Assembly: GCA_018970725.1 (NCBI GenBank)
Contig: JAGWVU010000023.1
Span: 1 to 64,000, forward strand
From: Verrucomicrobiota bacterium
Lineage (GTDB): Bacteria > Verrucomicrobiota > Verrucomicrobiia > Verrucomicrobiales > DEV007
Reading direction: 5' to 3'
DNA: 64,000 nt
The notes beneath the pieces were generated by a model. It searched no databases, was not told where the DNA came from, and was given only the letters and a program-made list of their open reading frames with translations. The position numbers were made by a program, and so were the translations under genes. Each line of letters begins with the position of its first letter. Position 1 is the first letter of the stretch. Positions 19,494 to 34,250 of the stretch are shown here, in pieces.

Positions 19494-19937
19494 TTATTGC
19501 ACCAAGCCGGCGGCGGTGTCCACGACGGCAGGTTGCGGCAATCCCTGCGGTTCCGCCGTGACGGGAGCGGGCTTTCCGGGGGCGCTCGGAGCCACGCCCT
19601 CGGCCAAGCCCGACGGCACGCGGATGGTGTTCCCCGCCACGATGAAGTCGCTGGTGAGTTGGTTCGCCGCCTTGATCTCCTTGACCGAAGTCTTGTAGGC
19701 CCGGGCGATGGTCCAGAGGGAATCTCCCTCCTGAATCTTGTAATCGACCAGCGGTTTATCGGAAGGCACGGCAGCGGGTGCCGCCCCCTGAACCCCGGGA
19801 CCGGCAGACGGAGCCGGCATCGCGGCGGCCCCTTGCGGCGGCAATTTCCCGCCTCCCCCGCACGCGCAGAGGGCCAGGGCGGTGATCAGCGAAAGACCGA
19901 TTGAAACGGTGGTCGGGAAGGGAGGCAGGCTGGACAT
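19494..19937 (-). CDS. LysM-domain lipoprotein
   Basis: The product is 147 residues. A hydrophobic N-terminus ends in 'LALCAC', a likely lipobox, followed by Gly/Pro/Ala-rich linker. One LysM domain lies at about 65-110: 'YKIQEGDSLWTIARAYKTSVKEIKAAN' then 'FIVAGNTIRVP'. LysM binds peptidoglycan or other N-acetylglucosamine polymers, so the protein probably tethers the outer membrane to the wall. No catalytic domain is attached. The start is the ATG preceding the signal sequence. It is convergent with the DUF1501 gene and divergent from the following hydrolase. Confidence 0.85.
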   Translation of the reverse strand: MSSLPPFPTTVSIGLSLITALALCACGGGGKLPPQGAAAMPAPSAGPGVQGAAPAAVPSDKPLVDYKIQEGDSLWTIARAYKTSVKEIKAANQLTSDFIVAGNTIRVPSGLAEGVAPSAPGKPAPVTAEPQGLPQPAVVDTAAGLVQ

Positions 19938-20035
19938 GGCAGTTTCATAGCACAAACTCCATGCATCGGGAAAATTTTTCCTGACACTTCGTGCCTTGAC
20001 TTCCCGTGATGGGGAGGGTTAACCCGATCTCCGCC

Positions 20036-22198
20036 ATGCCCGCGCCCCGCTTGTCCAGCCTTTTCCTGTTCTGCAGCCTGCTCACCCTCCAGGCCGCCGA
20101 TGTCCGGCACGCCGCGCCCCGCACCCTGAACGGCGAGTTCCCCTTCCACCCGGTGGCCTCCGCGGAAGCCTGGGAAGCCCGTCGCGACGATATCGCTTCC
20201 CGCATCCAAGTCGCCGCCGGACTCTGGCCGATGCCCTCGAAGGCTTCGCTGAACGCGGTGATCCATGGCACGGTTGACCGGGGCGACCACCAGGTGGATC
20301 GCGTCTTCTTCGAATCGCTTCCGGGCCATTTCGTCTCCGGCTCCCTCTACCGGCCGGCCGGGGCCTCCCTCGCTCATGGTCTCAAGGAGGGCAAAAGGGC
20401 CGCGGTCCTTTGCCCGCACGGCCATTGGAACAACGGACGCTTTTATGACGCCGGCGACGCCAGGGGACAGGAGGAGATCCGGGTCGGGGCCGAGGTTCTC
20501 ATCAACCCCGCCCGCTTCCCGGTGCAAGCCCGCTGCGTGCAACTGGCCCGGATGGGCTGCGTCGTCTTTCTTTATGACATGATCGGTTACGCCGATTCCC
20601 TTCAGTTCCCGGAGCATCGCAACGGTCCCCGCCCGGAGATGACGTCGCCCGCGCCCGGCCAGTGGGGCTTCGTCAGTCCTCAGGCGACCGCCCGGCTCCA
20701 GACGAACTTCGGCCTCCAGACGTGGAACAGCGTGCGGGCGCTCGACTTCCTCCTCGGATTGCCGGGGATCGACACGGACCGGGTGCTGGTCACCGGCGCC
20801 AGCGGTGGGGCCACCCAAACGATGATGCTGGGCGCGATCGACCACCGGGTCCGCTCCGCCTTTCCCTGCGTCATGGTCTCGACCGCGATGCAAGGCGGTT
20901 GCACCTGTGAGAATGGTCTCCTCCTGCGGATCGGTCAGGGCAACATCGACATTGCTGCCGCCCTCGCCCCACGCCCTCTCGGCCTGACTGCGGCCGATGA
21001 CTGGACGATCGACCTGGAGCGGAAAGGCCACCCCGACCTCCTCCATCTTTATCAGATGCTCGGGGCCGCGGACCGCTATGAGGCCCACTTCGACATCCAG
21101 TTCAAGCACAACTACAACCACGTCGCGCGCACGCACCTCTACCAGTTCGCGAACCGGCACCTTGCCCTCGGCCTGGCATCGCCGGTGAGCGAGAGTGATT
21201 TCCAACCTCTTTCCAAGGAGGAACTCACGGTTTGGACCGCGGCCCACCCGGCCCCGTCCGGCGACAAGGTCGGACCGACGCATGAAAAAGCGGTCTGCCT
21301 CTGGTGGGAGCAAGACTCCGCCCGGCAAATCGACCCTCTGCTGCGTCCATCGGATGCGGACAGCCTGCGCCGTGCCCGGGAAGTGCTCGGGACCGCCACC
21401 CGCGTCATGATCGGTCGGGACTTGCCCGCGGCGGCAAGCTGTGAGTTCGAGATCACCGGGAAACGCCAACAGGCGGACCACACCCGGCTCGCCGGGCTCA
21501 TCAGGCTCCCTTCCCGCGGCGAGGAAGTTCCCGCCGTCTTCCTCCACCCCTCCGGTTGGAATGGCACGGTGGTTCTTTGGATGACCCCGCGTGGCACCGC
21601 CGCCCTGGAAGCCGACCCCTCCGTGACCCGGTTGCTGAATGAAGGATACTGCGTGGCCGGCATCGATCTCTTCGGCACCACAGACCCCAAGGTCACCGAA
21701 AATCCCAACACCCCTTATTCGGCCAACGCGAACAAGCCCGGGGAGGGTTGGCAACTTTCTCCAGTCTACTACTACGGCTACAACGACTCCCTCTTCGCCC
21801 GCCGGGTGCACGATCTCCTCACCACGATCTCTTTCGTGCGCCATCATCCCGATTGGAAAGTCCAATCGGTCGCCGTGGCCGGAATGGAGGGGGCCGGTCA
21901 CTGGGTGGCCGCAGCCCGCGCCATCGCCGGTCCGGCCATCGATCGCTGCGCCGTCGACACCGGAACTTTCCGCTTTGCCGATCTTCCTGATTTCTGGCAC
22001 GCGGATTTCCTGCCCGGCTCCGTCAAGTATGGCGACGTGGAAGGACTGCTCGTTCAGTCTGCGCCGCATCCGCTCTGGGTGCGCAACCCGGCCGGGAAAA
22101 CCAGTGCGGCTCTCCGGGCGACCTACGGTGTGACCAACAGCGAAGGATCACTCCACTTCGGAGACTCCGATGTGGTCGACTTCCTGACCGCCAAATGA
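20036..22198 (+). CDS. Secreted alpha/beta hydrolase, acetylxylan-esterase-like
   Basis: About 720 residues. A signal peptide ('SSLFLFCSLLTLQA') precedes an alpha/beta-hydrolase domain with 'AAVLCPHGHWNNGRF', 'VFLYDMIGYADS' and the nucleophile elbow 'VTGASGGATQTM' (Ser near residue 270). 'HNYNHVARTHLYQFANRHL' may supply the catalytic His. A second part (about 460-720) repeats a hydrolase-like architecture ('EEVPAVFLHPSG', 'YCVAGIDLFGTTD', 'VAVAGMEGAGHWVAAARAI') in which the elbow reads GMEGAG, with Glu in place of Ser, so that half is probably non-catalytic. Family resemblance is to acetyl-xylan esterases/dienelactone-type hydrolases, suggesting removal of acyl groups from polysaccharides. 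The ATG at 20036 is chosen for its signal peptide; a GTG at 20006 is also in frame. Confidence 0.78.
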   Translation: MPAPRLSSLFLFCSLLTLQAADVRHAAPRTLNGEFPFHPVASAEAWEARRDDIASRIQVAAGLWPMPSKASLNAVIHGTVDRGDHQVDRVFFESLPGHFVSGSLYRPAGASLAHGLKEGKRAAVLCPHGHWNNGRFYDAGDARGQEEIRVGAEVLINPARFPVQARCVQLARMGCVVFLYDMIGYADSLQFPEHRNGPRPEMTSPAPGQWGFVSPQATARLQTNFGLQTWNSVRALDFLLGLPGIDTDRVLVTGASGGATQTMMLGAIDHRVRSAFPCVMVSTAMQGGCTCENGLLLRIGQGNIDIAAALAPRPLGLTAADDWTIDLERKGHPDLLHLYQMLGAADRYEAHFDIQFKHNYNHVARTHLYQFANRHLALGLASPVSESDFQPLSKEELTVWTAAHPAPSGDKVGPTHEKAVCLWWEQDSARQIDPLLRPSDADSLRRAREVLGTATRVMIGRDLPAAASCEFEITGKRQQADHTRLAGLIRLPSRGEEVPAVFLHPSGWNGTVVLWMTPRGTAALEADPSVTRLLNEGYCVAGIDLFGTTDPKVTENPNTPYSANANKPGEGWQLSPVYYYGYNDSLFARRVHDLLTTISFVRHHPDWKVQSVAVAGMEGAGHWVAAARAIAGPAIDRCAVDTGTFRFADLPDFWHADFLPGSVKYGDVEGLLVQSAPHPLWVRNPAGKTSAALRATYGVTNSEGSLHFGDSDVVDFLTAK

Positions 22199-22204
22199 TT
22201 CCGG

Positions 22205-23035
22205 TTAACCGCCGGGCTTGGTCAGCAAGATCTGCACCGTGGCCCCGCTGCGCAGGGTCAGCTTGGGGTTGTCGATGACGAGTTGGATCCGGACCGTGGC
22301 GGTGGCCGGATCAATGACCGGGGAAACGAACTCCACGGACCCGCGCACCACCACCGGCGCACCGTCCTCGACCCGCAGGTTGAGGGAATCACCCTTCTTG
22401 AGGCCCCGGGCGAAAGCGGCCGGCACATGCCCGATGCACTTGAGCCGGTCGATCTCGACCACCCGGACGAGGTAGTCATCCGGGCGCGCGGAAGCGAGGG
22501 AGACCGATTCTGCGATGTCCTTGGAAATATCCACGACGATGCCATCGATCGGGGAGGTCAACACCCTTCGCTTCAGTTCCGCCTCGATCTGGCGCACCTC
22601 AAGCCGGAAACTTTTCTGCTCTTCCTCGGCGATAATCTGGTTTCCCTTGGCTTGAACCAAGAGCGCCTTTTGGCGGGCCAGCTCCGCGGAGTTGGACGTG
22701 CCACTGGTCACCAAACGTTCCAGTTGATCGTGCCGTTGCTGTTGCAAGTCGACCTCGGCCTGGGTCGCCATCAATTTGCCAACTCCCTCCGCATTGATCC
22801 GGGCAATGGCGAGCCGGGACTCCGTGATCTCGTTGTCGAGAAGGAGCAGGACATCCCCGGGAGCCACGTGATCCCCTTCCTTGACCCGGATTTCCGAAAT
22901 GATGCCAGTCTCGATCGACGAAATCTCGATGGATCGGTAGGGCTCGAGATAGGAGAGGACCTCGTCCTCCGCCCGGGCCGGCCCGAGGAAGAGATGGAGG
23001 CAGAGGGCGCAGAGGAAAAACCGGCGTTGCATCAT
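22205..23035 (-). CDS. HlyD/RND-type periplasmic adaptor protein
   Basis: The product is 276 residues. A signal peptide ('RRFFLCALCLHLFLGPARA') is followed by a lipoyl/barrel-sandwich half ('IETGIISEIRVKEGDHVAPGDVLLLLDN'), a helical hairpin (about 75-150) and the second lipoyl half ('LTSPIDGIVVDI'), then a beta-barrel region. This is the membrane-fusion adaptor fold used by RND, ABC (HlyD) and similar exporters. No transporter gene (RND, ABC, MFS) is next to it; instead a SecA paralogue lies immediately upstream, whose stop overlaps a GTG at 23062 as GTGA. I use the ATG at 23035 because it gives a standard signal peptide; the GTG start would couple translation to the SecA gene. Confidence 0.85.
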   Translation of the reverse strand: MMQRRFFLCALCLHLFLGPARAEDEVLSYLEPYRSIEISSIETGIISEIRVKEGDHVAPGDVLLLLDNEITESRLAIARINAEGVGKLMATQAEVDLQQQRHDQLERLVTSGTSNSAELARQKALLVQAKGNQIIAEEEQKSFRLEVRQIEAELKRRVLTSPIDGIVVDISKDIAESVSLASARPDDYLVRVVEIDRLKCIGHVPAAFARGLKKGDSLNLRVEDGAPVVVRGSVEFVSPVIDPATATVRIQLVIDNPKLTLRSGATVQILLTKPGG

Positions 23036-23058
23036 GGGAAGTTCGGGGGCGGAAAAGG

Positions 23059-25014
23059 TCACGCGAGGTTGGATTTGATTTCGTCAAGCCACTTGTCCCG
23101 TTGCGCCAAGGCGAGGCGGGAATCATAACGCAGGCGTTCGACGGCCTGCTGCAGTCCATCGATCATTTCGCTGAATTTTCCAGAGACTTCGCCGGAACCA
23201 TCCGCCCGGGCCTTGCGGATCTTTTCGGATAGCCGGGGGGCATAGTGCTCCAGAAGATAGTCATCCGCGCTCACAAAAACCTGGGCGCTCCCGGGTTGCC
23301 CCTGACGCGCCCCCCGGCCGATCAACTGCCGGTCGATCCGAACCGATTCATTCCGCTCCACCGCGATCACATGCAGACCGCCGGCCGCGAGGGAGGCCGG
23401 GTCCAAGTCGATATGCGTTCCCCGTCCCGCCATGTTGGTGGCCAGCAAGACATGGCCGGGATCCCCCGCCCGGGCCACGATCTCGCTTTCCTCCGCATCT
23501 TGCTTGGCGGTGAGCAGGGTGAACGGCAGGCCCGCCTGCGAGAACACCTCCGCCAACGCCTCGCTGGCCCGGATGGTCCGCGTGCCCACCAAAACCGGCT
23601 GCCCGCGCCGATGCCGCGTCATCACTTCCCCGAGCACCGCCCGATACGCGGCTTCACGGGAGCTGAAGATCCGCTCCGGGAGCATCACCCGTTGGCCGGG
23701 CTTGTGCAAAGGCACCGTCTCCACCCCCATCCCGAAGAAATGCCAGAATTCCCCGGCGCTCTCGGCCGCCGTGCCCGTCAACCCGCAGATGGTGTCGTAG
23801 AGCCCGAAGTAACGCTGCCTCGTCACCGTCGCGGCGGAATCGTTCTCCGCCCGGATTTCCACGCATTCCTTGGCCTCAACCGCCTGATGCAAACCGTCAC
23901 GCCAGGTCCGTTCACTGAATCGCCGCCCCGTGAACTCGTCGATGATGCAGACTTTTTCCTCTTCATCGATCACGTAGCTGCCGTCACGCAAAAAGAAGTG
24001 CTCGGCGCGGAGCGCATTCAACACATAGGTCTGCCAAGGACGTCGCAACAGGTCCCAGGGAATGCCGGGGGCCTGATGGATGAGTTCAAAGCCTTCCCGG
24101 GTCAACGTCACGCCCCGCCGCGAGAGATCCAGGACAAAGTGCTCCTCCTCCCGCAGGTCCGCCGCCAGATCGCGGGCCGCATGATACGCCGCCTCACCTT
24201 CATTGCGTCCCGGCCCGGCCTCGCTGATGACCAGCGGGGAGCCGGCCTCATCGATCAACACGGAATCAACCTCGTCAATGATCGCGAAGTGCAAGCCGCG
24301 CTGGACGATTGCCGGTTCAGGATTTTCCAGGCCCATCAGCGCGTTGCGCAACCGCTCCCGGGGACCGGAACGCGGCGAGCGAAGCAACACGAGATGATCC
24401 CGCAGGTAATCAAACCCGAACTCATAACCTACACCGTAGGTCACATCGGCCGCGTAGGCCGCGCGTTTGGCTTCCGGCGTCCCGTCCTTGCCCTCGGGCA
24501 AATGGCGCACCGTCAACCCGAGATATTCAAAGATCGGAGTGGAGAATTCACAATCGCGCTTCGCCAAGTAACTGTTCACGGTCACGCAATGCACTCCCTT
24601 TCCAAAGAGCGAAAACGCGAAGGCCGGCAGCGACACCGCCAAAGTCTTCCCCTCCCCGGTCGCCATCTCCGCCACGGCCCCGCGCACCAGAATCAAACCT
24701 CCGATCAACTGCTCCGGGTAATGATACAAACCGGTCGTCCGCCGGGATGCCTCGCGAACCATCGCGAAGACTTCTTCCACCGTCTCTTCCAGATCCAGTT
24801 TCCCCGCCTTGGCCAGGGAACGCCAATGCCCGACCCGGGCCAGCATGTCCTCCCGGGACCGCCGGGCCATCGGCGCGGCCAAGGCCTCGATCCCTTGCAA
24901 CCGCTCCGCATCGGTCTTGTTCTTCTTCGCATCGGTGAACCGCTCCCAGCCACGCTTGAACTTCGCGCCGAGGAAAGCGCGCTTGTCATACTGGGAACCC
25001 AAACGGACGGCCAT
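23059..25014 (-). CDS. SecA-like preprotein translocase ATPase (accessory paralogue)
   Basis: About 651 residues, against about 800-900 for housekeeping SecA. The motor motifs are present: Walker A 'MATGEGKT' (near 105), DEAD-type 'DEVDSVLIDEAG', 'VGTRTIRASEALAE', motif V 'TNMAGRGTHIDL' and motif VI 'IGRGARQGQPGSAQVFVS'. The usual motif V 'TDMAGRGTDI' and motif VI 'GRQGDPG' are changed at D to H and D to Q. A preprotein cross-linking-type insertion is seen, but the C-terminal part is short and has no CxCxxxxxCH zinc motif for SecB. It follows a POTRA porin gene and precedes an HlyD adaptor on the same strand, which suggests a dedicated export job. The ATG at 25014 is preferred over an upstream TTG (25119). 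Confidence 0.82.
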   Translation of the reverse strand: MAVRLGSQYDKRAFLGAKFKRGWERFTDAKKNKTDAERLQGIEALAAPMARRSREDMLARVGHWRSLAKAGKLDLEETVEEVFAMVREASRRTTGLYHYPEQLIGGLILVRGAVAEMATGEGKTLAVSLPAFAFSLFGKGVHCVTVNSYLAKRDCEFSTPIFEYLGLTVRHLPEGKDGTPEAKRAAYAADVTYGVGYEFGFDYLRDHLVLLRSPRSGPRERLRNALMGLENPEPAIVQRGLHFAIIDEVDSVLIDEAGSPLVISEAGPGRNEGEAAYHAARDLAADLREEEHFVLDLSRRGVTLTREGFELIHQAPGIPWDLLRRPWQTYVLNALRAEHFFLRDGSYVIDEEEKVCIIDEFTGRRFSERTWRDGLHQAVEAKECVEIRAENDSAATVTRQRYFGLYDTICGLTGTAAESAGEFWHFFGMGVETVPLHKPGQRVMLPERIFSSREAAYRAVLGEVMTRHRRGQPVLVGTRTIRASEALAEVFSQAGLPFTLLTAKQDAEESEIVARAGDPGHVLLATNMAGRGTHIDLDPASLAAGGLHVIAVERNESVRIDRQLIGRGARQGQPGSAQVFVSADDYLLEHYAPRLSEKIRKARADGSGEVSGKFSEMIDGLQQAVERLRYDSRLALAQRDKWLDEIKSNLA

Positions 25015-25181
25015 ACGATTCAGTCGGGGGCGAGTTGCCCCCCCCAACTTTGCAACCTTGACCTTTTCTTGGACGTGAGTCGAGCGCGCATTGCTCAAGG
25101 TCGTGGTTCTCCGAGACAAAGAAACCCGCCCCCTTCCAATTGCGGACGTCAGAAGCTGGATCTGAGGAAGACCGGAGGTCC

Positions 25182-27026
25182 TCAGAAGGTAGCGGTCACG
25201 CCGGCATTAAGCCGGAAATCCTCGACCGGTGTGCCGACGGGCAAATCCTCGTCGATCGGGAATCCGAGATCGAGACGCAGCCGGAGCCATTCGTTGTAGG
25301 TCCACCGCAAACCGACACCCAGGCTGAAGAGGCTGGTGGAGTCCATGGCCCCGGGCAGGAGGTTGGTGGCTCCGACCGTGCCATAATCCGCGAAAACGAG
25401 GAACTGAAGCTCGTCATTCGTGGAGCGCCAGTCGAACCAATCGCCCAAGGAATAGGTGGGGCTGTAAATTTCTCCGCTGAGGAGAAAGCCATGGTCCCCC
25501 CGGGTCACGCTGGTCGCGTAACCGCGGACGGTGGATGGCCCCCCGATCCCCAGCTGTTCACTGGCCAGAAGGTTTTCATTGGCCATCTGGCCTTGGGTCC
25601 GCAGCCGGAAACTGAATTCCCGGGGCAGCCGCTGGGTGTGTTCGACCCCGGCGGTGAGATACCCGTATTTCGAATTGGCCCCGAAATTGGTGGCATCAAA
25701 GGTCAGATCCTGATTGTGGGAGTCCACGCCTCCGGGGCTAAGATATCCGGTGAGATCGAGCCGGGTGGCGGCGTTTTTCCACTGGCGCAGGGCGTTGTAG
25801 CCCATGCTCCATTGGTAGATGTGGGTCGTCACATCAAAGAACCCCTGTCCTCCGAAGGCGAGGTCGTTGTTGCTCGACTTGAAATCAAAACCGAATTCAA
25901 TCTCGTGGTTCATTCCTTCCGGCGCCCGGCGCAAGGGAATGGTGTAGCGAGGGCTGAGTTGCCAGGAGGTTCCGCCCGTCTCCAGGGGAACGCCGCCGGC
26001 ATCGATCGTGGCCGCCGTGTCCACGTAGGCCCCGAGGAGCGTCATATAGTGCCGCCATGGCAGGGGCGCACTGTAAACCAACGTATGGCTCACCAAGCGA
26101 TCGAATCGGAAGTCGGTCGTGAGTTGATAGTTCAGGTTCCGGTCAGGCCCGAAGGCCTCGGTCCAGTTTAAGCCCATCAGAAACCGCTCCTCGCCCAGCA
26201 ACCTGTTCCCCGAGTTTTCCGCACCGATGTAAAACTCGATCGGGTCCACCTGATTGGTCTTCAAGATGATGTCCGTCTCGCCGAATTTGTAACCAGGGGC
26301 ATACACCATGTCGACACGGCGGTTCGGACTGCGGTTCATCCACGACAGATCGCCCATCACTTCGCTCGAATAGAGCACCTCGCCCTTTTCAGTTTTGATC
26401 TGGCTGCGCAAATACTCCTCATCCCCACGCTTCGCCCCCTGGACCCGGACGGCACCCAACCGGCCCTCGACGACCACCAATTGCACCACCCCGGAGGTGA
26501 TGTCCTGCTCCGGCACCAACACGTCCACCACCGGGCGGTCACTCGCGCGGTAGGCCCGGATCGTGTCCTTCACCATCGCATCCAGCGAAGCGAGGGAAAC
26601 CGGCTGGCCGATGTAGGCGTTGATCGCGTTCCCGGCGCGAGGAGGGAAATCCTCAAGGTCATGCCACACGCCCTCCACCCCCGGAATCCCGCTCAGGACC
26701 ACATCACCGGGAGTCGGCACCAATACCACGCCCCGGAGCCGCCCGACCAAGGACTCCTGGCTCAGCCCGGTCTGCTGTGGAGCCAGATAGGAGCCGGACT
26801 TGGAACGCGGTGCCGCGGAAGGCACCGAGGCACTGGCGGTGCCCGAGGGCGGCGAAACCTTCGGCGCGGACGGCTTTCTGGCACTCGATCCAATGGATTT
26901 CACCAGTTCCGGGGCATACTCGGTTCCGAACTGGTCCACCACCACGTCCTGAGCGTGCAACGAAGCCGCCCCGAGGAGAATGGCCGCTCCGAAGGTCGTG
27001 AGGAGGGAATAAGATGGGTTCGTCAT
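25182..27026 (-). CDS. ShlB/FhaC/HecB-type outer-membrane POTRA transporter
   Basis: The product is 614 residues. A signal peptide ('SYSLLTTFGAAILLGAASLHAQ') precedes a Pro/Ser-rich linker (about 30-85), a POTRA_2-like region (about 90-215; 'GIPGVEGVWHDLEDFPPRAGNAINAYIGQPVSLASLDAMV', 'ASDRPVVDVLVPEQDITSGVVQLVVVEGRLGAVRVQG') and a beta-barrel (about 250-614) that ends in Phe as BAM substrates do. 'GPSTVRGYATSVTRGDHGFLLSGEI' fits the conserved VRGY motif at the barrel tip in FhaC/Omp85 proteins. These transporters secrete large exoproteins (TpsA). No TpsA partner is next to it; the neighbours are a small secreted protein upstream and the SecA paralogue downstream. Confidence 0.88.
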   Translation of the reverse strand: MTNPSYSLLTTFGAAILLGAASLHAQDVVVDQFGTEYAPELVKSIGSSARKPSAPKVSPPSGTASASVPSAAPRSKSGSYLAPQQTGLSQESLVGRLRGVVLVPTPGDVVLSGIPGVEGVWHDLEDFPPRAGNAINAYIGQPVSLASLDAMVKDTIRAYRASDRPVVDVLVPEQDITSGVVQLVVVEGRLGAVRVQGAKRGDEEYLRSQIKTEKGEVLYSSEVMGDLSWMNRSPNRRVDMVYAPGYKFGETDIILKTNQVDPIEFYIGAENSGNRLLGEERFLMGLNWTEAFGPDRNLNYQLTTDFRFDRLVSHTLVYSAPLPWRHYMTLLGAYVDTAATIDAGGVPLETGGTSWQLSPRYTIPLRRAPEGMNHEIEFGFDFKSSNNDLAFGGQGFFDVTTHIYQWSMGYNALRQWKNAATRLDLTGYLSPGGVDSHNQDLTFDATNFGANSKYGYLTAGVEHTQRLPREFSFRLRTQGQMANENLLASEQLGIGGPSTVRGYATSVTRGDHGFLLSGEIYSPTYSLGDWFDWRSTNDELQFLVFADYGTVGATNLLPGAMDSTSLFSLGVGLRWTYNEWLRLRLDLGFPIDEDLPVGTPVEDFRLNAGVTATF

Positions 27027-27033
27027 TGCGCTT

Positions 27034-27062
27034 CCTAAAGTCACCGATCCAAGCCGAAACAA
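27034..27062 (-). promoter_or_regulatory. Predicted promoter of the ShlB/FhaC-type gene
   Basis: On the minus strand TTGTTT (27062-27057) and TTTAGG (27039-27034) are 17 nt apart, and the start ATG follows 7 nt after the -10 box. The transcript would have little or no leader, as for several other genes in this window. The match to a sigma-70 type consensus is moderate. Confidence 0.35.
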
Positions 27063-27142
27063 CTAGCGAAAGGCCCCGGGTCCGTCCAGACAATTGCGAG
27101 TTTTTTTAAATTTCGTTAATTTCCGTCAGCTATCACGTTGTC

Positions 27143-27847
27143 TTAACGAACCGGCCCCTTGCCTTTCCCTGCGGGAACATATTGCTTCAAGACCCGCTCC
27201 CCCACGTTCCGCGTCGCCACCGGATTCCCGTCCGGACCAAGCGGCACCCGTTCCCGGGTCGACTCGAAGGTGAGCGGCGGGTGGGGCGACTTCGCCATGT
27301 AGATCTCGTCGAACAAATCCTTTTTCCGGTCCGCGGCGGACTTGAGTTCTTCCGGCGTCGGTTCGACTTGGGCGGGTTCTTGGGGTTTCCGCCGGTCCTC
27401 GCGGATTTCCACCGGAGTGAACTGCTTCAATTCCTCCCCGCGGGCCGTGGCCAAGCTGCCCTTCGACATCGCGGCGCGGCTGTATTGATCCTCCGGAACG
27501 AACTCCGGCATCCCGAATTTGGGGTTATACGGGGACCGGGCATCGAGCACCGGCGGGGCGACCTTGGAGGTCCGGTTGGCATTCGACGGAATGCGCACCT
27601 CCGCCTGTCCGCCACCAGCCTGCCCGCCGGTTCCAAAGGGATTGCCCTCTCCCGGCCGCGCACCACGAGGCGGCATCACCGGAGCGGAGACCACTTCCCC
27701 CGGAGGTGTCTCCTGAGCCCGGCCGCCCTTCAGCAAACCCTTCAGCCCGTTCCGTCCGCCGCCCTCCTGAGCCTCCACCGGAGCCGCCAGAATCGAACAG
27801 AAGAGAAAGCCGACGCCAAAAAAACAGAGATGGTTCGAGAATCCCAT
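27143..27847 (-). CDS. Small secreted proline-rich protein of unknown function
   Basis: The product is 234 residues. A signal peptide ('NHLCFFGVGFLFCSILAAPVEAQ') is followed by a Gly/Pro-rich, low-complexity mature part with no cysteines. The C-terminal half is charged ('EIREDRRKPQEPAQVEPTPEELKSAADRKKDLFDEIYMAKS'). I recognise no domain. It lies upstream of the ShlB/FhaC-type porin on the same strand (116 nt away), so it may be a periplasmic helper of that locus or a cargo. The start is the ATG in front of the signal peptide; the open frame begins earlier but overlaps the helicase gene. Confidence 0.6.
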   Translation of the reverse strand: MGFSNHLCFFGVGFLFCSILAAPVEAQEGGGRNGLKGLLKGGRAQETPPGEVVSAPVMPPRGARPGEGNPFGTGGQAGGGQAEVRIPSNANRTSKVAPPVLDARSPYNPKFGMPEFVPEDQYSRAAMSKGSLATARGEELKQFTPVEIREDRRKPQEPAQVEPTPEELKSAADRKKDLFDEIYMAKSPHPPLTFESTRERVPLGPDGNPVATRNVGERVLKQYVPAGKGKGPVR

Positions 27848-27930
27848 GGCCAATTTTTTCTTATAGCGCGTGCGAGGCGGATTCGTCCACTTCTTTCTCC
27901 ACTGCTCTGGCTTGAATTCCGCGCGGCCGG

Positions 27931-30582
27931 TCAATCCACCCGTTCGCCCTCGTCGATCGCCAAGAATGCCAGCAATCGGTCGTCGTCAAGCTCCCACCAA
28001 TCCGCCGCCATCCCGTCGGATGTCCCCAAGCAATCCGCCAGCCGCTGCTTTTCCGCGAGCATCGCGTCGATCCGGTCCTCCAAGGTTCCCGGACAAACGA
28101 ATTTGTGGACCAGCACGGCGCGTTTTTGTCCGATGCGATAGGCCCGGTCCGTGGCCTGGTTCTCCACCGCCGGATTCCACCAACGGTCGAAGTGGACGAC
28201 GTGTGAGGCGGCGGTCAGGTTGAGGCCGGTCCCGCCCGCGCGCAGGGAGATGACGAAAAAGGGAGGGCCGAGGGCCGACTGGAATCCGTCGACCAAAGCC
28301 GCCCGGCGCCCGACCGGGGTTCCCCCGTGCAAGACGAGGCCGGGCCGTTTGAAAACGGATTGCAAGGATCCGGCGATGGCGGTGGTCATCTCGCGGAATT
28401 GGGTGAACACGATGAGTTTTTCGCCCCGGGCGGCGATCTCGGCGGAGAGGGTTCGCAGCCGCATCAGCTTGCCACTGGAACCGGGGTCGAAGTTTCCGCT
28501 CCCGGTGAGGAGCGCGGGATGGTCACAAATCCGTTTCAGTCGGGTCAAGGTCTGCAGGACCAAGGCCTTCCGCTCTTGATCCGACTCCACCGGTTGCGCG
28601 AGACGGGCGGCGAGATGGCGCACTTCCGTCTCATACAAGGCGGCCTGCCCCTTGGTCAGGGCACACCCCGTCCTCATTTCGATCTTGGGCGGCAAATCCC
28701 CCGCCACCGCCGGATCCGTCTTGAGGCGACGCAGCAGGAATGGCCCCAGCAAGGTGCGGAGCGCCTGGAATCCTTCGCCCCCCATCCCCTCCATGGTTTG
28801 CTGGAAACGCTCCCGCCCGCCGAGCAAGCCCGGATTGAGAAAATCGAAAATCGACCACAGGTCCCCCAGTCCGTTTTCAATCGGCGTTCCGGTCAGAGCA
28901 ATCCGTCCCCGGGCCGGTACCGCTTTGGCCGCGAGGGTCTGGCGGGCGGCCGGATTCTTGATGGCCTGGGCTTCGTCGAGAACGAGCAAGTCCCAGGTCC
29001 GGCTGGCGAATACCTCCAGACGGCTCAGCATGGTGTAGGTCGTCAACACGACATCCACCCCGTCCAGACTGGCGGACAAGCCGGCAAATCCGTCCCGACC
29101 CATCGCGGAGCGGTGGGCACAAAGCATCCGGAGCCCCGGCGCGAAGCGAGCCAATTCGGCACGCCAGTTCCCGAGGAGCGAGGCCGGAGCGACGACGAGG
29201 CTCCGATGCCCCGACCCCTGCCGCGCCACGAGCAGGGCGATGATCTGCAAGGTCTTGCCCAGCCCCATGTCATCCGCCAGACAGGCCCCCAGCCCCGCCT
29301 CCTGCAAGCGGTGCAACCAATTCAGCCCGGTCTGCTGGTAGTCGCGCAAGGTCGCCCGCAAACCCGGACCGGGATCGATGAATGGCGCGGAGCGCACGTC
29401 CCGCAAGGCCCCGATCCAGTTCCGCAACTCCCCCACCGCCCGGACCTCGGACCAACCGGCTGGATCTCCGGCTCCGGGCGCATCCCCGGCGGTTCTTTCC
29501 CTCATCCCGGCCATCCAGCGCATCCCCTCCACGAATCCAATCCGCCCTTCCTCCGCCGCGGTCTCCACCTTGCGCCAGTGCCGCAGGGCCTGCTCCAGCT
29601 TCCGGGCATCGACCTCCACCCATTTCCCGCGGATCGAGACCAAACCCGCCCCGGCCTCGACCAACCGGAGCCATTCTTCCTCGGTGAGTTCCTCCCCGGC
29701 CATCGCCACCTTGGCCCGGAACCGCAGCAGGCAGCCCGCCCCCACCGCGGATGGTTTGCCTGCCTGCACTTCCACGACCACCTGGGGACGCGAGGGACGC
29801 CCCCGATCCCACCAATCCGGCACCTTGACCACGACCCCGGCCCTTTGCAGGGAGGGAATGGCCTGCAAAAACGCGTGAGCTTGGGAGGGCGTCCAAGGCA
29901 ACGGCTGGTAAACGCGGCCGCCTTCCACCAAATCCCGGATAAAGGGATCCGCTTCGGACGCGAGGCGCACCGGTTCAAGGAGCCCGCGCAACGCCTCCTG
30001 ATCCCCCCGCGCTGAAACCTCCTTCAACACCCGGCCCAGCGGAGCATGCTGCAACTGCTGGCCGTCGGAAAGACGCGTCGTGTAGGTCGCCAAAAACGCG
30101 AACGGATGCGTTGCCGACCGCGGATTCTCCGCCAGATGAAAAGTGACCCGCCCGAGGAGGCGCCAGGACGGCCCGAGACTCTGCAACCAAGCCGCCGGGT
30201 CTCCGCCCGCCCCGGCGATCCCCCGCCGGGCAGCCTCCTCCATCTGTTCCCAAAGCGCCGCGAAGGCGCCTTCGTTCCAGTATTCCATCCCCGGTCCCGC
30301 AGGGGCCCCGGCCAAAAAGGAGCGGAGGAATTCCGCGTCCGGCAGCGGCACGGGACGCCCCTCGACGGCGCCACTCCGGCAGAAGCGGGTGAGATACTCC
30401 CGGCCGAGTCGCCACCAGTGGGACGTGAGCGGGGAAACCACCCACTCCGGGGCCAGGTTGGCCAGCGCGATCAACCCGTCCCCGCTCCCCGACGCGAAGG
30501 CGGCGGAGACTTTCCCCGGCAAACCGGCGGACGCGGCATCGAGAGTCACGCCATCCGCAAGCAACCTGACGCCCTCGATCAC
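27931..30582 (-). CDS. SNF2-family DEAD-like helicase
   Basis: The product is 883 residues, starting at GTG. The C-terminal half is a complete SNF2 motor: 'CLADDMGLGKTLQIIALL' (Walker A, about residue 440), 'LVVAPASLLGNW', 'DVVLTTYTML', 'LLVLDEAQAIKNP', 'IALTGTPIENGLGDLWSIFDFLNPG', then the helicase C part with 'KLIVFTQFREMT', 'LRAGGTGLNLTAASHVVHFDRWWNPAVENQATDRAYRIGQ'. The ~400-residue N-terminal region resembles that of bacterial SNF2 proteins but no SWIM zinc motif is seen. It should be a dsDNA translocase that remodels protein-DNA complexes. The gene begins 6 nt after the stop of the kinase/FGE gene, so they form one operon. GTG is supported by this spacing. Confidence 0.9.
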   Translation of the reverse strand: MIEGVRLLADGVTLDAASAGLPGKVSAAFASGSGDGLIALANLAPEWVVSPLTSHWWRLGREYLTRFCRSGAVEGRPVPLPDAEFLRSFLAGAPAGPGMEYWNEGAFAALWEQMEEAARRGIAGAGGDPAAWLQSLGPSWRLLGRVTFHLAENPRSATHPFAFLATYTTRLSDGQQLQHAPLGRVLKEVSARGDQEALRGLLEPVRLASEADPFIRDLVEGGRVYQPLPWTPSQAHAFLQAIPSLQRAGVVVKVPDWWDRGRPSRPQVVVEVQAGKPSAVGAGCLLRFRAKVAMAGEELTEEEWLRLVEAGAGLVSIRGKWVEVDARKLEQALRHWRKVETAAEEGRIGFVEGMRWMAGMRERTAGDAPGAGDPAGWSEVRAVGELRNWIGALRDVRSAPFIDPGPGLRATLRDYQQTGLNWLHRLQEAGLGACLADDMGLGKTLQIIALLVARQGSGHRSLVVAPASLLGNWRAELARFAPGLRMLCAHRSAMGRDGFAGLSASLDGVDVVLTTYTMLSRLEVFASRTWDLLVLDEAQAIKNPAARQTLAAKAVPARGRIALTGTPIENGLGDLWSIFDFLNPGLLGGRERFQQTMEGMGGEGFQALRTLLGPFLLRRLKTDPAVAGDLPPKIEMRTGCALTKGQAALYETEVRHLAARLAQPVESDQERKALVLQTLTRLKRICDHPALLTGSGNFDPGSSGKLMRLRTLSAEIAARGEKLIVFTQFREMTTAIAGSLQSVFKRPGLVLHGGTPVGRRAALVDGFQSALGPPFFVISLRAGGTGLNLTAASHVVHFDRWWNPAVENQATDRAYRIGQKRAVLVHKFVCPGTLEDRIDAMLAEKQRLADCLGTSDGMAADWWELDDDRLLAFLAIDEGERVD

Positions 30583-30588
30583 GCCGGT

Positions 30589-33084
30589 TCAGTTCGGGGT
30601 CACGGCCCGGGCAAGCACATAGCGGAAGCCGACGCCGTCCTCACGGGCATTGCTGGCGAGGGAACGGCGGTAAGTCGAGAGCAGCTCCCGTTCGGAAGAG
30701 GTGGTGTATCCCCCGCCCCGGATGGTCCCGGACGTGCCGGTGCCAACCCCGCCAAGAAAGTTGTCGCTGACCCACTCCCAGACATTTCCGGGGATGTGAT
30801 ACAAACCGTTGCGGTTGGGTTGCAATTCATTGACCCAGGCCAACCCGGGAAAGGTATCGTCGTATCCCGGAATCACAGAGGGTCCGGGAATCACAGGATC
30901 GCTCACCCCGTTCCTCGCCTCGTAGTCCCGGCGCAAGCTGAGGTCGGCCAGATTGGCCGCCCCTTCCGGCGGAGGCCAGTCGTAGCCCCACGGAAACACC
31001 CCGCCGATGGAGGCGTTCCGGGCTGCAGGAGTCGTCCCCCGCTCGCCCGGCAAGCCCGCGGCGAGACTCCATTCCACATCACTGGGCAATCGATATTCGT
31101 AGCGGGCCGTCAAGTCCCCGGAACCCCTCTCCAACGTGGTCAACCATTGGCAAAAGGCCTCGGCGTCCTCCCGGGAAATCCGGTGGACCGGATGCATGTC
31201 CGGGGTGGGATAGAGGGGCTCCATCGGCTCATCATGCCCGGTCTCCTTGCAGAACCTGGCGTAATCGATTCTCGGCGTCTCCGTGGTGGCCATGAGAAAG
31301 TCCCCCACCGGAGCAAGGTCGCGCCCGAGGGAATTCTGCCATGGCTTGCCCATCTCCACCGCCACCCCGGGCTCCAACCGCGCGAACAACTCGAGCAACC
31401 CGTTCGGCTCCACCGCATTGGACAAATAGACGGTGCGATGGTCGTTCATGCGGATTTCGAAAGTCACCGACCCGCTGCGAATCCGGGAAACCTCGAAGGG
31501 CGTGGTCCCCAAATAGTCGCCCTTGCCATCAAAAACCTCCGCCCCGGTCGGTTCGGAGCGGATCACAAGGCTGCCGTAGCTGGGCCGGTCCACGTAGACC
31601 AGAAAGGGACTGATGGCCACCTTGGACCGATCGTAATCCAAGGCCCGGTTCGGCCAATGCAAGGTCTCATCCTGGAGCGTCTCCGCCCGGTAAGTGGACT
31701 CGGTCCCGATGAATCCCGCCGCCTGATCCCTCGCCTGCAGCCACTCGGCGAAAGCCTTCGCCTCACGCGCCGAAACGATCGGGATCGGATACGGTTTGCC
31801 CCGGATCGTCTGCATGACGATCTCCCCCTCGAACTGGCGCTTCGCCTCGATCGAGAACGCCATGAAAAGATCCGCGTGGACCGGTAGATCGAGCCGGTGC
31901 CCCGTCATGGTCGGCTTGAATTCCAGCCCGAGGCTGTCCACCCACGTGGCTCCGGGTTGCGGAAACCGGGTATCCTCCAACTTGAGGTGGATCGTCCGGC
32001 GCGGATCTGATTTGCCCGCGTAGTCGATCACCTCGTTGCGGAATCCGCTCAGCATCACCTCGTAGGTGACGCCCTCGGTCGGTCTCTTGTCCAGAAGCAA
32101 CGGAGTCGTTCCCAAGCGCAACTCCCCCGCAAAGACCTCCGCCCCGGCCGGTTCGGTGGTGATCGAAAGATTGTCCAACACCGCCTGCCGCCGCGCCCCG
32201 AGAATGCCCGCGAGAATCAGACCCGCCACCGCCGCGCTCCCCGCCCAGACCGGCCATCGGGATCTGGCCGGAACCTCTTGTCCCCGCAGCGCCACCGCCA
32301 TGTCCCGGGCGCAGGCATAGCGGCTTTCCGCCCTCCGGGAACAGGCCCGGCAAACCACCCGGTTGATCCGCCGCCAGATTTCACGCTGGCTGTTCTCCCG
32401 CAAGCTCGAGGGAACGTCGGGAAAATCGAGCCGGTCCTTGCCGGTCGCCAGCTCGTAAAGGACCATTCCCAAGCTGAAAATGTCCGCGGCCGGCGTTCCC
32501 GCCCCCTCCGGCGGCACATAGCCTTCCGTGCCGACGAAGCTCCGGTCCCCCAACGCCGCGACCAACCCGATGTCGGCCAGTTTGGCCCGACCGTGAACCA
32601 CGATGGCGTTGGAAAGTTTGACGTCCCGGTGAATCAGGTTGCGCTCATGCAGGTGTTGCAGGGCTTCCGCCAACTGGGCCCCCTGTTCCGCCACGGTATC
32701 GAGCCGCACCTTGCACCCCTCCTGAAGCGCCGAACGGAAGGTGTGGGCCACGTAGGTCTCCGGCTCGATGGTCTGCCCGTGATAAAGATCGTCGGCGACC
32801 TCCATCACATAGTAATAGAAGGCGGCCTTCTGATCCCGCCCGACCTGGAGGACATTGACCAAACCCGGGTGTTGCCGGGAGATTGGTTCGTAGCGCCGGA
32901 TCGCCTCGAATTCGCGTTCGAAATCCCGTTCGTTGTCGAAATCCTCCCTCCGGATGACCTTCACGGCCCGGTAGACCCCCGTCACGGTGCGGGCCAGCCA
33001 GACCTCACCGAAGGCACCGCGACCAATCATTCGCAATACCTCGTGGTCCGGGATGATGGGGGGTTCGCATCCTCGCTTCGCCAT
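30589..33084 (-). CDS. Membrane Ser/Thr protein kinase with PEGA and FGE-fold sensor domains
   Basis: The product is 831 residues. The kinase domain (about 15-265) has the P-loop 'IGRGAFGEVW', the ATP Lys in 'RAVKVI', the catalytic loop 'LIHRDVKLSN', 'ADIG' in place of DFG, and 'GTEGYVPPEG'; all essential residues are present. One membrane helix follows ('AVAGLILAGILGA', about 283-303). The extracytoplasmic part has a PEGA domain (about 308-375), a partial FGE-like piece (about 380-500), a second PEGA domain (about 505-575) and a full FGE-sulfatase/C-type-lectin-like domain (about 590-825; 'YRLPSDVEWSLAAGL', 'FPWGYDWPPPEG', 'HIPGNVWEWVSDN', 'GTIRGGGY'). The FGE part lacks the catalytic cysteine pair, so it is more likely a ligand binder. 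The SNF2 helicase gene follows 6 nt later. Confidence 0.9.
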   Translation of the reverse strand: MAKRGCEPPIIPDHEVLRMIGRGAFGEVWLARTVTGVYRAVKVIRREDFDNERDFEREFEAIRRYEPISRQHPGLVNVLQVGRDQKAAFYYYVMEVADDLYHGQTIEPETYVAHTFRSALQEGCKVRLDTVAEQGAQLAEALQHLHERNLIHRDVKLSNAIVVHGRAKLADIGLVAALGDRSFVGTEGYVPPEGAGTPAADIFSLGMVLYELATGKDRLDFPDVPSSLRENSQREIWRRINRVVCRACSRRAESRYACARDMAVALRGQEVPARSRWPVWAGSAAVAGLILAGILGARRQAVLDNLSITTEPAGAEVFAGELRLGTTPLLLDKRPTEGVTYEVMLSGFRNEVIDYAGKSDPRRTIHLKLEDTRFPQPGATWVDSLGLEFKPTMTGHRLDLPVHADLFMAFSIEAKRQFEGEIVMQTIRGKPYPIPIVSAREAKAFAEWLQARDQAAGFIGTESTYRAETLQDETLHWPNRALDYDRSKVAISPFLVYVDRPSYGSLVIRSEPTGAEVFDGKGDYLGTTPFEVSRIRSGSVTFEIRMNDHRTVYLSNAVEPNGLLELFARLEPGVAVEMGKPWQNSLGRDLAPVGDFLMATTETPRIDYARFCKETGHDEPMEPLYPTPDMHPVHRISREDAEAFCQWLTTLERGSGDLTARYEYRLPSDVEWSLAAGLPGERGTTPAARNASIGGVFPWGYDWPPPEGAANLADLSLRRDYEARNGVSDPVIPGPSVIPGYDDTFPGLAWVNELQPNRNGLYHIPGNVWEWVSDNFLGGVGTGTSGTIRGGGYTTSSERELLSTYRRSLASNAREDGVGFRYVLARAVTPN

Positions 33085-33196
33085 GATGTCAGGCTTTAAG
33101 TCCCTCCGCGGCCGGAAACGCTCAAACTACGAGCGGACCCGGTCCGCCTCCGGGGTCCCGCCACCCGCCTGCCGCGGGAAATGAAGGAGCCCGCAT

Positions 33197-33742
33197 TCAG
33201 ATCAGCCCCAGCTTCATGCGACCTTCCTCCGTGATCATGTCCTGGCTCCACGGAGGATCCCAGACCAACTCGACCTTGGCATCGTCCACCACGCCGATCG
33301 CCATGATCTTGGCCTGGGCATCGGCCGCGATCGCCGGTCCCATCCCACACCCCGGAGCCGTCAGGGTCATCTTCACGTTGACGAATTGACGTCCCTCGAC
33401 CTCTTGCACCTGGCAGTCGTAGACCAGCCCGAGATTTACGATGTCCACCGGGATCTCCGGATCGAAAACGGTCTTCAGGGATTCCCAAACCGCCCCTTCC
33501 AGATCCCCGGCGGCCACTTTCTCGGCCAAGGCCCGGGCCGCCTCGCTCCCCTTCGCCTCAATTCCCAAGGCATCCGCGTCCTTCTCCCGGATGCGGGCCA
33601 ACCCGAAGTCCGTCGCGACGGTGTAGGATCCACCCAACGACTGGGTGATCATGACCCTCGTGCCGATCGGCAGGATGATCTCATCCCCCCGGGGAATCTG
33701 GATGGCTTCAACTTCGCGGCTCAGGAAGATTTCTTGGTGCAT
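33197..33742 (-). CDS. sufT: SufT-like Fe-S assembly protein (MIP18/DUF59 family)
   Basis: The product is 181 residues. The C-terminal part (about 75-181) is a DUF59/MIP18 domain: 'LKTVFDPEIPVDIVNLGLVYD', 'KMTLTAPGCGMGPAIAADAQAKI' and 'VELVWDPPWSQDMITEEGRMKLGLI', with the conserved Asp-Pro-Glu-Ile and Cys. The N-terminal ~70 residues ('REVEAIQIPRGDEIILPIGTRVMITQSLGGSYTV') are the SufT-specific extension. SufT supports Fe-S cluster maturation in bacteria with SUF systems. The gene lies 10 nt after the NifU-like scaffold gene, agreeing with that function. The start ATG ('MHQEIFLSR') gives the normal SufT N-terminus; the frame runs further upstream into the NifU gene. Confidence 0.88.
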   Translation of the reverse strand: MHQEIFLSREVEAIQIPRGDEIILPIGTRVMITQSLGGSYTVATDFGLARIREKDADALGIEAKGSEAARALAEKVAAGDLEGAVWESLKTVFDPEIPVDIVNLGLVYDCQVQEVEGRQFVNVKMTLTAPGCGMGPAIAADAQAKIMAIGVVDDAKVELVWDPPWSQDMITEEGRMKLGLI

Positions 33743-33752
33743 GGGACGGAGT

Positions 33753-34250
33753 TCAATCGAGCTTGACGATGCGCAACTTCTGCCCTGCAGAAACGCCGGA
33801 AGTCGCGAGACTGTCAAGCAGCGTCGCCGCGGCGGGTCCCCCGGGACCTTCGATTGCGCCCCCGGCGGGCTCCCCGGCTTCCGCGCGCAGCGCTTCCCGG
33901 AGCGCTCCCTCGACCATCTGGCCGCAATGCATTTTCATCGGAGGCAATGGCCCAAGGGGCTCGCTCAGGTCTCCGGCTCCAAGGCTCCGCGCCTCCTCCA
34001 CCGTTTTGCCGGCCAACAACTCGGTCGCCAACGAGGCCACCGCGATGGCAGTCTGACAGCCGAAACTTTGGAAACTGGCCCGGTCGATGACCTTCCTGCC
34101 GTCCTTCTCCGAAAACTTCAGCCACATCCGCACCATGTCCCCGCAATCCGCGCTCCCCACCGTGCCCACCGCATCCGCGTCGCTCATCTCCCCCATGTTC
34201 TTCGGGTTGGCGATGGCGTCGCGGACCTTTTCCTCAAACGAATCGGACAT
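33753..34250 (-). CDS. NifU-like/IscU-type Fe-S scaffold protein
   Basis: The product is 165 residues. The three conserved cysteines of IscU/NifU N-terminal scaffolds are visible in context: 'GSADCGDMVRMWLKF' (about 36), 'SFQSFGCQTAIAVASLATELLAGKTVEEA' (about 65) and 'LPPMKMHCGQMVEGALREAL' (about 108). These hold a transient [2Fe-2S] cluster for delivery to apoproteins. A Gly/Ala/Pro-rich C-terminal tail of about 45 residues follows and is unusual. sufT is directly downstream; clpB is 71 nt upstream on the same strand. No cysteine desulfurase gene is in the window. Confidence 0.85.
   Translation of the reverse strand: MSDSFEEKVRDAIANPKNMGEMSDADAVGTVGSADCGDMVRMWLKFSEKDGRKVIDRASFQSFGCQTAIAVASLATELLAGKTVEEARSLGAGDLSEPLGPLPPMKMHCGQMVEGALREALRAEAGEPAGGAIEGPGGPAAATLLDSLATSGVSAGQKLRIVKLD

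Follow-up and report, generated by a model that had tools for sequence, protein, structure and literature searches.

The window analysed here, a stretch of 64,000 nucleotides from a Verrucomicrobiota bacterium, carries a SecA paralogue in a row with genes for an HlyD-type adaptor, a porin and a small protein of 234 residues, and the locus raises the question whether these four genes encode one machine or, if not, with which proteins the SecA paralogue works and on what cargo. The initial annotation had read them as a single secretion route across the envelope. All four open reading frames are present on the minus strand, and the families named there were correct by profile match (HlyD_D23/HlyD_3 for the adaptor, SecA_DEAD with PP_bind and P-loop matches for SecA, ShlB with POTRA_2 for the porin); the small protein had no family match in the family search. 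The starts as first listed need trimming: that of SecA is most likely the ATG at 25014 (MAVRLGSQYDK, 651 amino acids), which is the start of its orthologues, and the sequence together with the relatives points to ATG 23035 for HlyD, ATG 27026 for the porin and ATG 27847 for the small protein. A promoter and terminator scan gave nothing above shuffled sequences. The features discussed below are as follows.

22205..23035, minus strand: HlyD/MexA-type periplasmic adaptor with an N-terminal signal peptide (PF16576/PF13437), directly downstream of SecA
23059..25014, minus strand: short SecA paralogue (secondary SecA_DEAD protein), 651 amino acids, NBD1-PPXD-NBD2 plus the start of the scaffold helix
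23065..23175, minus strand: long C-terminal helix of the short SecA, residues 614-650, in the AlphaFold2 model; the protein ends there
24262..24276, minus strand: Walker B of the short SecA, DEVDS, residues 247-251, with D247, E248 and D250 invariant
24643..24666, minus strand: Walker A of the short SecA, MATGEGKT, residues 117-124, with GEGKT invariant in 22 relatives
25015..25181, no strand: synteny breakpoint and upstream limit of the SecA-HlyD block, from collinearity with congeners
25182-27026, minus strand: ShlB/POTRA_2 porin (TpsB-type), by family match

The idea that SecA, HlyD, the TpsB-type porin and the small protein make up a single exporter across the envelope, in which the small protein is cargo or helper, draws on their adjacency on one strand, but the comparison with relatives makes it extremely improbable. 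From 19,498 to 25,023, the window is collinear with contigs on which two congeners have SecA-HlyD together with an esterase-like and a LysM gene, and positions 25,182-34,000 are collinear with other contigs of the same two congeners, where a kinase, SNF2, the small protein and the porin follow each other. In both sequenced congeners, synteny breaks at 25,023|25,182, exactly between the porin and SecA, and because each side is collinear but lies on a different contig, the porin block is best seen as an accidental neighbour. The gene upstream of SecA in one congener (G001) reads as rRNA methyltransferase-like, not as a porin, and in the other (G002), 617 bases past the porin have no match to the SecA region of the window. 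Porin orthologues are present across the family, with none beside SecA among the other family members that have both genes. Judging by gene order, the four genes thus appear to be two unrelated pairs, the porin and the small protein belonging to the kinase-SNF2-small-porin block, and the juxtaposition of SecA-HlyD with the porin appears specific to the genome of the window. What survives of the four-gene route is the SecA-HlyD pair, the order of which is conserved in Verrucomicrobiota and Planctomycetota as part of an envelope-spanning, type-I-like module; the order of porin and SecA is not conserved, the porin and the 234-residue protein fall outside the module, and the latter, located in a separate block on different contigs in both congeners, is very unlikely to be a helper or cargo of SecA-HlyD. 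As partners of SecA-HlyD, the two proteins are rejected on the synteny in both congeners. The resemblance of the locus to two-partner secretion (TpsB/ShlB/FhaC) amounts to the neighbouring porin gene, which is unlinked to SecA-HlyD in every relative examined.

Compared with B. subtilis SecA, the alignment of the short SecA stops at about residue 603. The zinc tail is missing, as had been noted, but this was an understatement given that the wing domain, the two-helix finger and the linker are missing too. The altered motifs V and VI are also real (GRGTHI and GRGARQGQPG vs GRGTDI and GRSARQGDPG); despite these changes, the ATPase motifs are intact, and 22 relatives show no variation in the arginines of motif VI, in Walker A or in the DE of Walker B. 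On another contig (C96), the same genome encodes a separate housekeeping SecA, which is 1082 amino acids long and has a zinc tail; the short paralogue is therefore not the housekeeping copy. Among 120 SecA rows, the short ones (600-699 amino acids) are cleanly apart from the long ones (754 and up), the single exception (L043) being a short row with a mistaken start. All 61 of the 61 short rows and this mis-started one fall into a single group of the 120-row grouping, and in a tree of 55 rows, a branch with SH-aLRT 100 sets the short SecAs apart from the others. This clade spans Verrucomicrobiota, Planctomycetota and Pseudomonadota and is separate from the housekeeping SecA. The AlphaFold2 model of the short SecA (pLDDT 86) has a single long helix at its end.

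In the three phyla, the short SecA neighbours genes for HlyD, GAF-HlyD and an M50-HlyD membrane protease, and OEP (TolC-type) is also found in many of the Verrucomicrobiota clusters and in some others. At least one of HlyD, GAF-HlyD, M50-HlyD and OEP lies within 12 kb of the short SecA in 59 of 63 loci, and HlyD is on the strand of SecA in all 49 short-SecA loci where it was found. The M50 gene is telling: M50 proteases had been put forward as possible associates of the SecA-HlyD pair, and the M50-HlyD protein in the clusters of relatives identifies the module as the one described by Kamneva, Poudel and Ward in 2015, a secondary SecA_DEAD, type-I-related module with a 'completely unknown' substrate, in which SecA was proposed to be the ATPase and M50 the pore, together replacing the ABC transporter, and some partners may be encoded at a distance from the others (PMC4452313). 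Methylobacterium extorquens AM1 is among the carriers of the module listed there. To call the route 'unrecognised' was accordingly too strong, although its role was left open in that publication. The likeness extends to the SecA clade devoid of the scaffold-wing domain, the partners (GAF-HlyD, M50-HlyD, HlyD and sometimes OEP) and the phyla, which are all the same; the difference is that in the genus of the window, the module is scattered, with SecA-HlyD standing alone.

With type I secretion (ABC transporter-HlyD-TolC), the module shares the HlyD adaptor (PF16576/PF13437) and the TolC-type outer-membrane factor (PF02321), both of which are present, as well as some giant RTX- or adhesin-like putative cargo. 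It differs in that a SecA-type ATPase and a multi-pass M50 protein take the place of the ABC transporter, of which there is none among the recurrent neighbours of the short SecA and none within the named Mesorhizobium and Alisedimentitalea modules, and in that the candidate tag is N-terminal whereas the type I tag is C-terminal. Judging by these neighbourhoods, the outer-membrane partner of the SecA-HlyD module is in all likelihood the TolC-type OEP, a conserved association that weighs further against the four-gene exporter. The porin was also considered as a TolC equivalent and rejected: in the relatives, that place is filled by OEP, not ShlB.

The genome of the window (108 contigs, 96.5% complete) contains all the HlyD-bearing partners, although not clustered: one M50-HlyD and GAF-HlyD are on contig C105, one OEP is on C14, and HlyD adjoins SecA. 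That these unlinked parts cooperate is suggested by the linkage in relatives. In the GAF-HlyD of this genome, one strong membrane segment separates the GAF and HlyD parts, and M50-HlyD has five to eight hydrophobic segments, with the M50 zinc-site motifs HExxH and NP....DG invariant. The M50 fold is absent from the best 50 Foldseek matches, all of which are HlyD-type, so that the M50 assignment rests on Pfam and the motifs. At the N-terminus of M50-HlyD, the best PDB match is PqqD (3g2b, E=0.004), and a PqqD (PF05402) match at E<=1 was found in 13 of 15 relatives (best 5e-8), with none listed for the protein of the window's genome. The PqqD fold is a leader-binding fold of RiPP systems. The invariant M50 catalytic residues and the helicase-like motor next to the protease also fit a role in processing or quality control, in which the short SecA would unfold membrane or LEPR-XLL proteins (see below) and pass them to M50, HlyD only organizing the complex and secretion following another route; this is improbable, considering that two or three HlyD adaptors and a co-encoded OEP suit export better and that the same clusters contain cargo-like giant genes.

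Within the stretches examined, many module clusters have ORFs of 1,200-3,000 residues beside them; the four examined first contain RTX, cadherin, Ig, PKD or RHS repeats, and several start with LEPR-XLL (NCBIfam NF012209), a recognized N-terminal domain of very long proteins. This domain, under the name LEPR-8K, has been described in a giant Vibrio protein of about 8000 amino acids with an RTX end (PMC10868602), and the open-licence literature found names no export machinery for LEPR-XLL proteins. The open frames of the LEPR-XLL giants reach about 20,000 codons. Across 42 sequences, the N-terminal motif is [FLY]x[LVF]E[AQ]-LEPR-[ILV]L[LYF]SA, and in none of the 42 is there a classical signal-peptide core, that is, a 15-residue stretch that is hydrophobic enough. 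By coordinates, the giant ORFs adjoining the Pseudomonas, Rubrivivax, Burkholderiales, Devosia and Amphritea clusters are LEPR-XLL genes. In 17 of 21 listed cases, which are pairs picked from tables because both members are on one contig, the LEPR motif lies within 500 nucleotides of the end of the SecA or M50 domain. In Mesorhizobium ciceri R30, a 31.6-kb LEPR gene, DUF3467, HlyD, GAF-HlyD, M50 and SecA stand in a row, and complete plasmids of Mesorhizobium (LEPRLLLS) and Pseudohalocynthiibacter (YEPRLLLS, an 11,582-amino-acid frame) combine a LEPR giant with the module. The window's genome has a single such start, MKPKKPGK...WEQLEPRILYSAAPV, at the end of contig C89 (G000:C89:1772-1828), which scores 27.5 bits against a cut-off of 17 for a model of only 24 positions; its counterpart in G001 is an 18,596-amino-acid open frame with PATR, Calx-beta and LapA matches.

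The association holds across genomes. LEPR-XLL is present in 32 of the 33 relatives with the short SecA and in three of the 63 without it; the 96 relatives divide into 32 with both, one with SecA only, three with LEPR-XLL only and 60 with neither (p=7e-21, kinship ignored), and the contrast repeats inside the mixed genera (g2, g4, g7, g10, g16, g24 and g25). Among the named genomes, LEPR-positive ones comprise 18 of 21 with the short SecA and one of 29 controls. With M50-HlyD as the marker, LEPR-XLL was found, among the 368 genomes sampled from the window's phylum, in 22 of 25 with a strong match vs six of 343 without (p=6e-27, kinship ignored), and among 378 from Pseudomonadota, in 34 of 38 vs 16 of 340 (p=1e-31, kinship ignored), where a strong match means E below about 1e-160, a limit set after the scores were seen to form two groups, plus one split gene. 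In the six LEPR-positive genomes of the window's phylum without a strong M50-HlyD match, the LEPR matches are weak and lie in ORFs of 138-636 amino acids. PMC4452313 contains none of the terms 'LEPR', 'PqqD', 'giant' and 'cargo', and the link between LEPR-XLL proteins and the SecA/M50-HlyD module is made in the present analysis.

These genome comparisons suggest that the LEPR-XLL giants are surface proteins and the cargo of the module. For the window's genome, it is reasonably probable that SecA-HlyD represents two parts of a type-I-like machine, the other parts of which are encoded elsewhere in the genome, and that this machine exports one or a few giant LEPR-XLL proteins. We also lean, if only slightly, toward the more specific proposal that the short SecA, M50-HlyD, HlyD and OEP form a dedicated exporter of LEPR-XLL giants in which the LEPR-XLL tag is read by the PqqD-like domain and a SecA-type motor replaces the ABC or RND pump. 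Under such a mechanism, the cargo would lack a cleavable hydrophobic signal, and recognition of the FxLEA-LEPR-ILLSA segment at its N-terminus would take place in the cytoplasm, with the PqqD-like domain of M50-HlyD as the most likely reader. Although devoid of the two-helix finger, the short SecA has a clamp and an ATPase core, with which it could couple ATP hydrolysis to export by threading the unfolded cargo into the multi-pass M50-HlyD; the latter would serve as the inner-membrane pore. Three HlyD adaptors would bridge to OEP, through which the giant would be secreted, and the M50 site, with its zinc ligands kept, may clip the tag.

The putative motor role of the short SecA is weakened by some clusters. 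In some Pseudomonadota (L256-L259, L263), a LEPR giant is found with HlyD-HlyD-M50 and no short SecA within the stretch examined, the M50 there belonging to a second subfamily. LEPR giants are thus accompanied more constantly by M50-HlyD than by SecA, which may be dispensable or may not act as the motor.

Such clusters would be served by the housekeeping SecA if LEPR-XLL proteins used SecYEG to cross the inner membrane, the short SecA acting as a specialized SecA2, and if M50-HlyD, HlyD and OEP only carried the cargo from the periplasm to the surface or processed its N-terminus. Such an accessory-Sec route is rather unlikely but deserves consideration, and SecYEG could still be the pore for LEPR-XLL cargo. 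The short SecA resembles SecA2 in being a second SecA with an altered C-terminal region, and the SecA2 models are its best curated match, although at 557.7 bits, far below the cut-off of 1085. The best structural match of its predicted model by TM-score (0.84) is SecA engaged with SecY, a shape that need not show the working state. However, all short SecAs are devoid of the wing domain and the two-helix finger, the LEPR N-termini have no signal-peptide core, and the short SecA sits with HlyD, M50 and OEP, not with SecY2, no secY having been seen as a recurrent neighbour in the homology-based survey. The dedicated exporter remains the preferred reading.

Taken as a four-gene unit, the locus was misread, and what it contains is ordinary, namely, part of a known, scattered module; yet it pointed the way to what is a strong candidate for the module's missing substrate. 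What is new is the likely cargo of a module known since 2015 without a substrate, keeping in mind that the literature compared consisted of open-licence papers and later work on the module may exist. Joining the module and the LEPR-XLL giants gives both a testable function, and the module also occurs in cultured rhizobia and roseobacters. If the connection is true, the module would be a tripartite exporter driven by SecA, and its cargo would include some of the longest proteins made by bacteria.

The kinase, SNF2 helicase, small secreted protein and TpsB-type porin genes form a four-gene block (window 25182-33084) that is kept within the genus, being found in both congeners (G001:C7 and G002:C8). 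The kinase of this block carries FGE-sulfatase and PEGA domains. Besides the porin of the window, the same genome encodes a further, divergent TpsB-type porin (G000:C89:96375-97385, locus L084).

In rhizobia and roseobacters, the module proposed to export the giant LEPR-XLL proteins is located, together with its giant gene, on plasmids (L249 and L250; Mesorhizobium ciceri and Pseudohalocynthiibacter), and in a 62-kb plasmid of this set, the giant frame alone takes up more than half of the record. SapC (PF07277) and DUF3467 (PF11950) proteins are repeated neighbors of the module in Pseudomonadota (L038, L047, L264, L265; L043, L063, L078, L249). Five other Pseudomonadota loci (L256-L259, L263) encode a second M50-HlyD subfamily adjoining two HlyD proteins, with LEPR-XLL giant genes alongside in several of these genomes; the short SecA is absent from the fetched stretches at these loci.

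The LEPR-XLL open frames of 18,000-20,466 codons (G109:C142, G556:C115, G112:C1 and G001:C8) rank among the longest bacterial genes.
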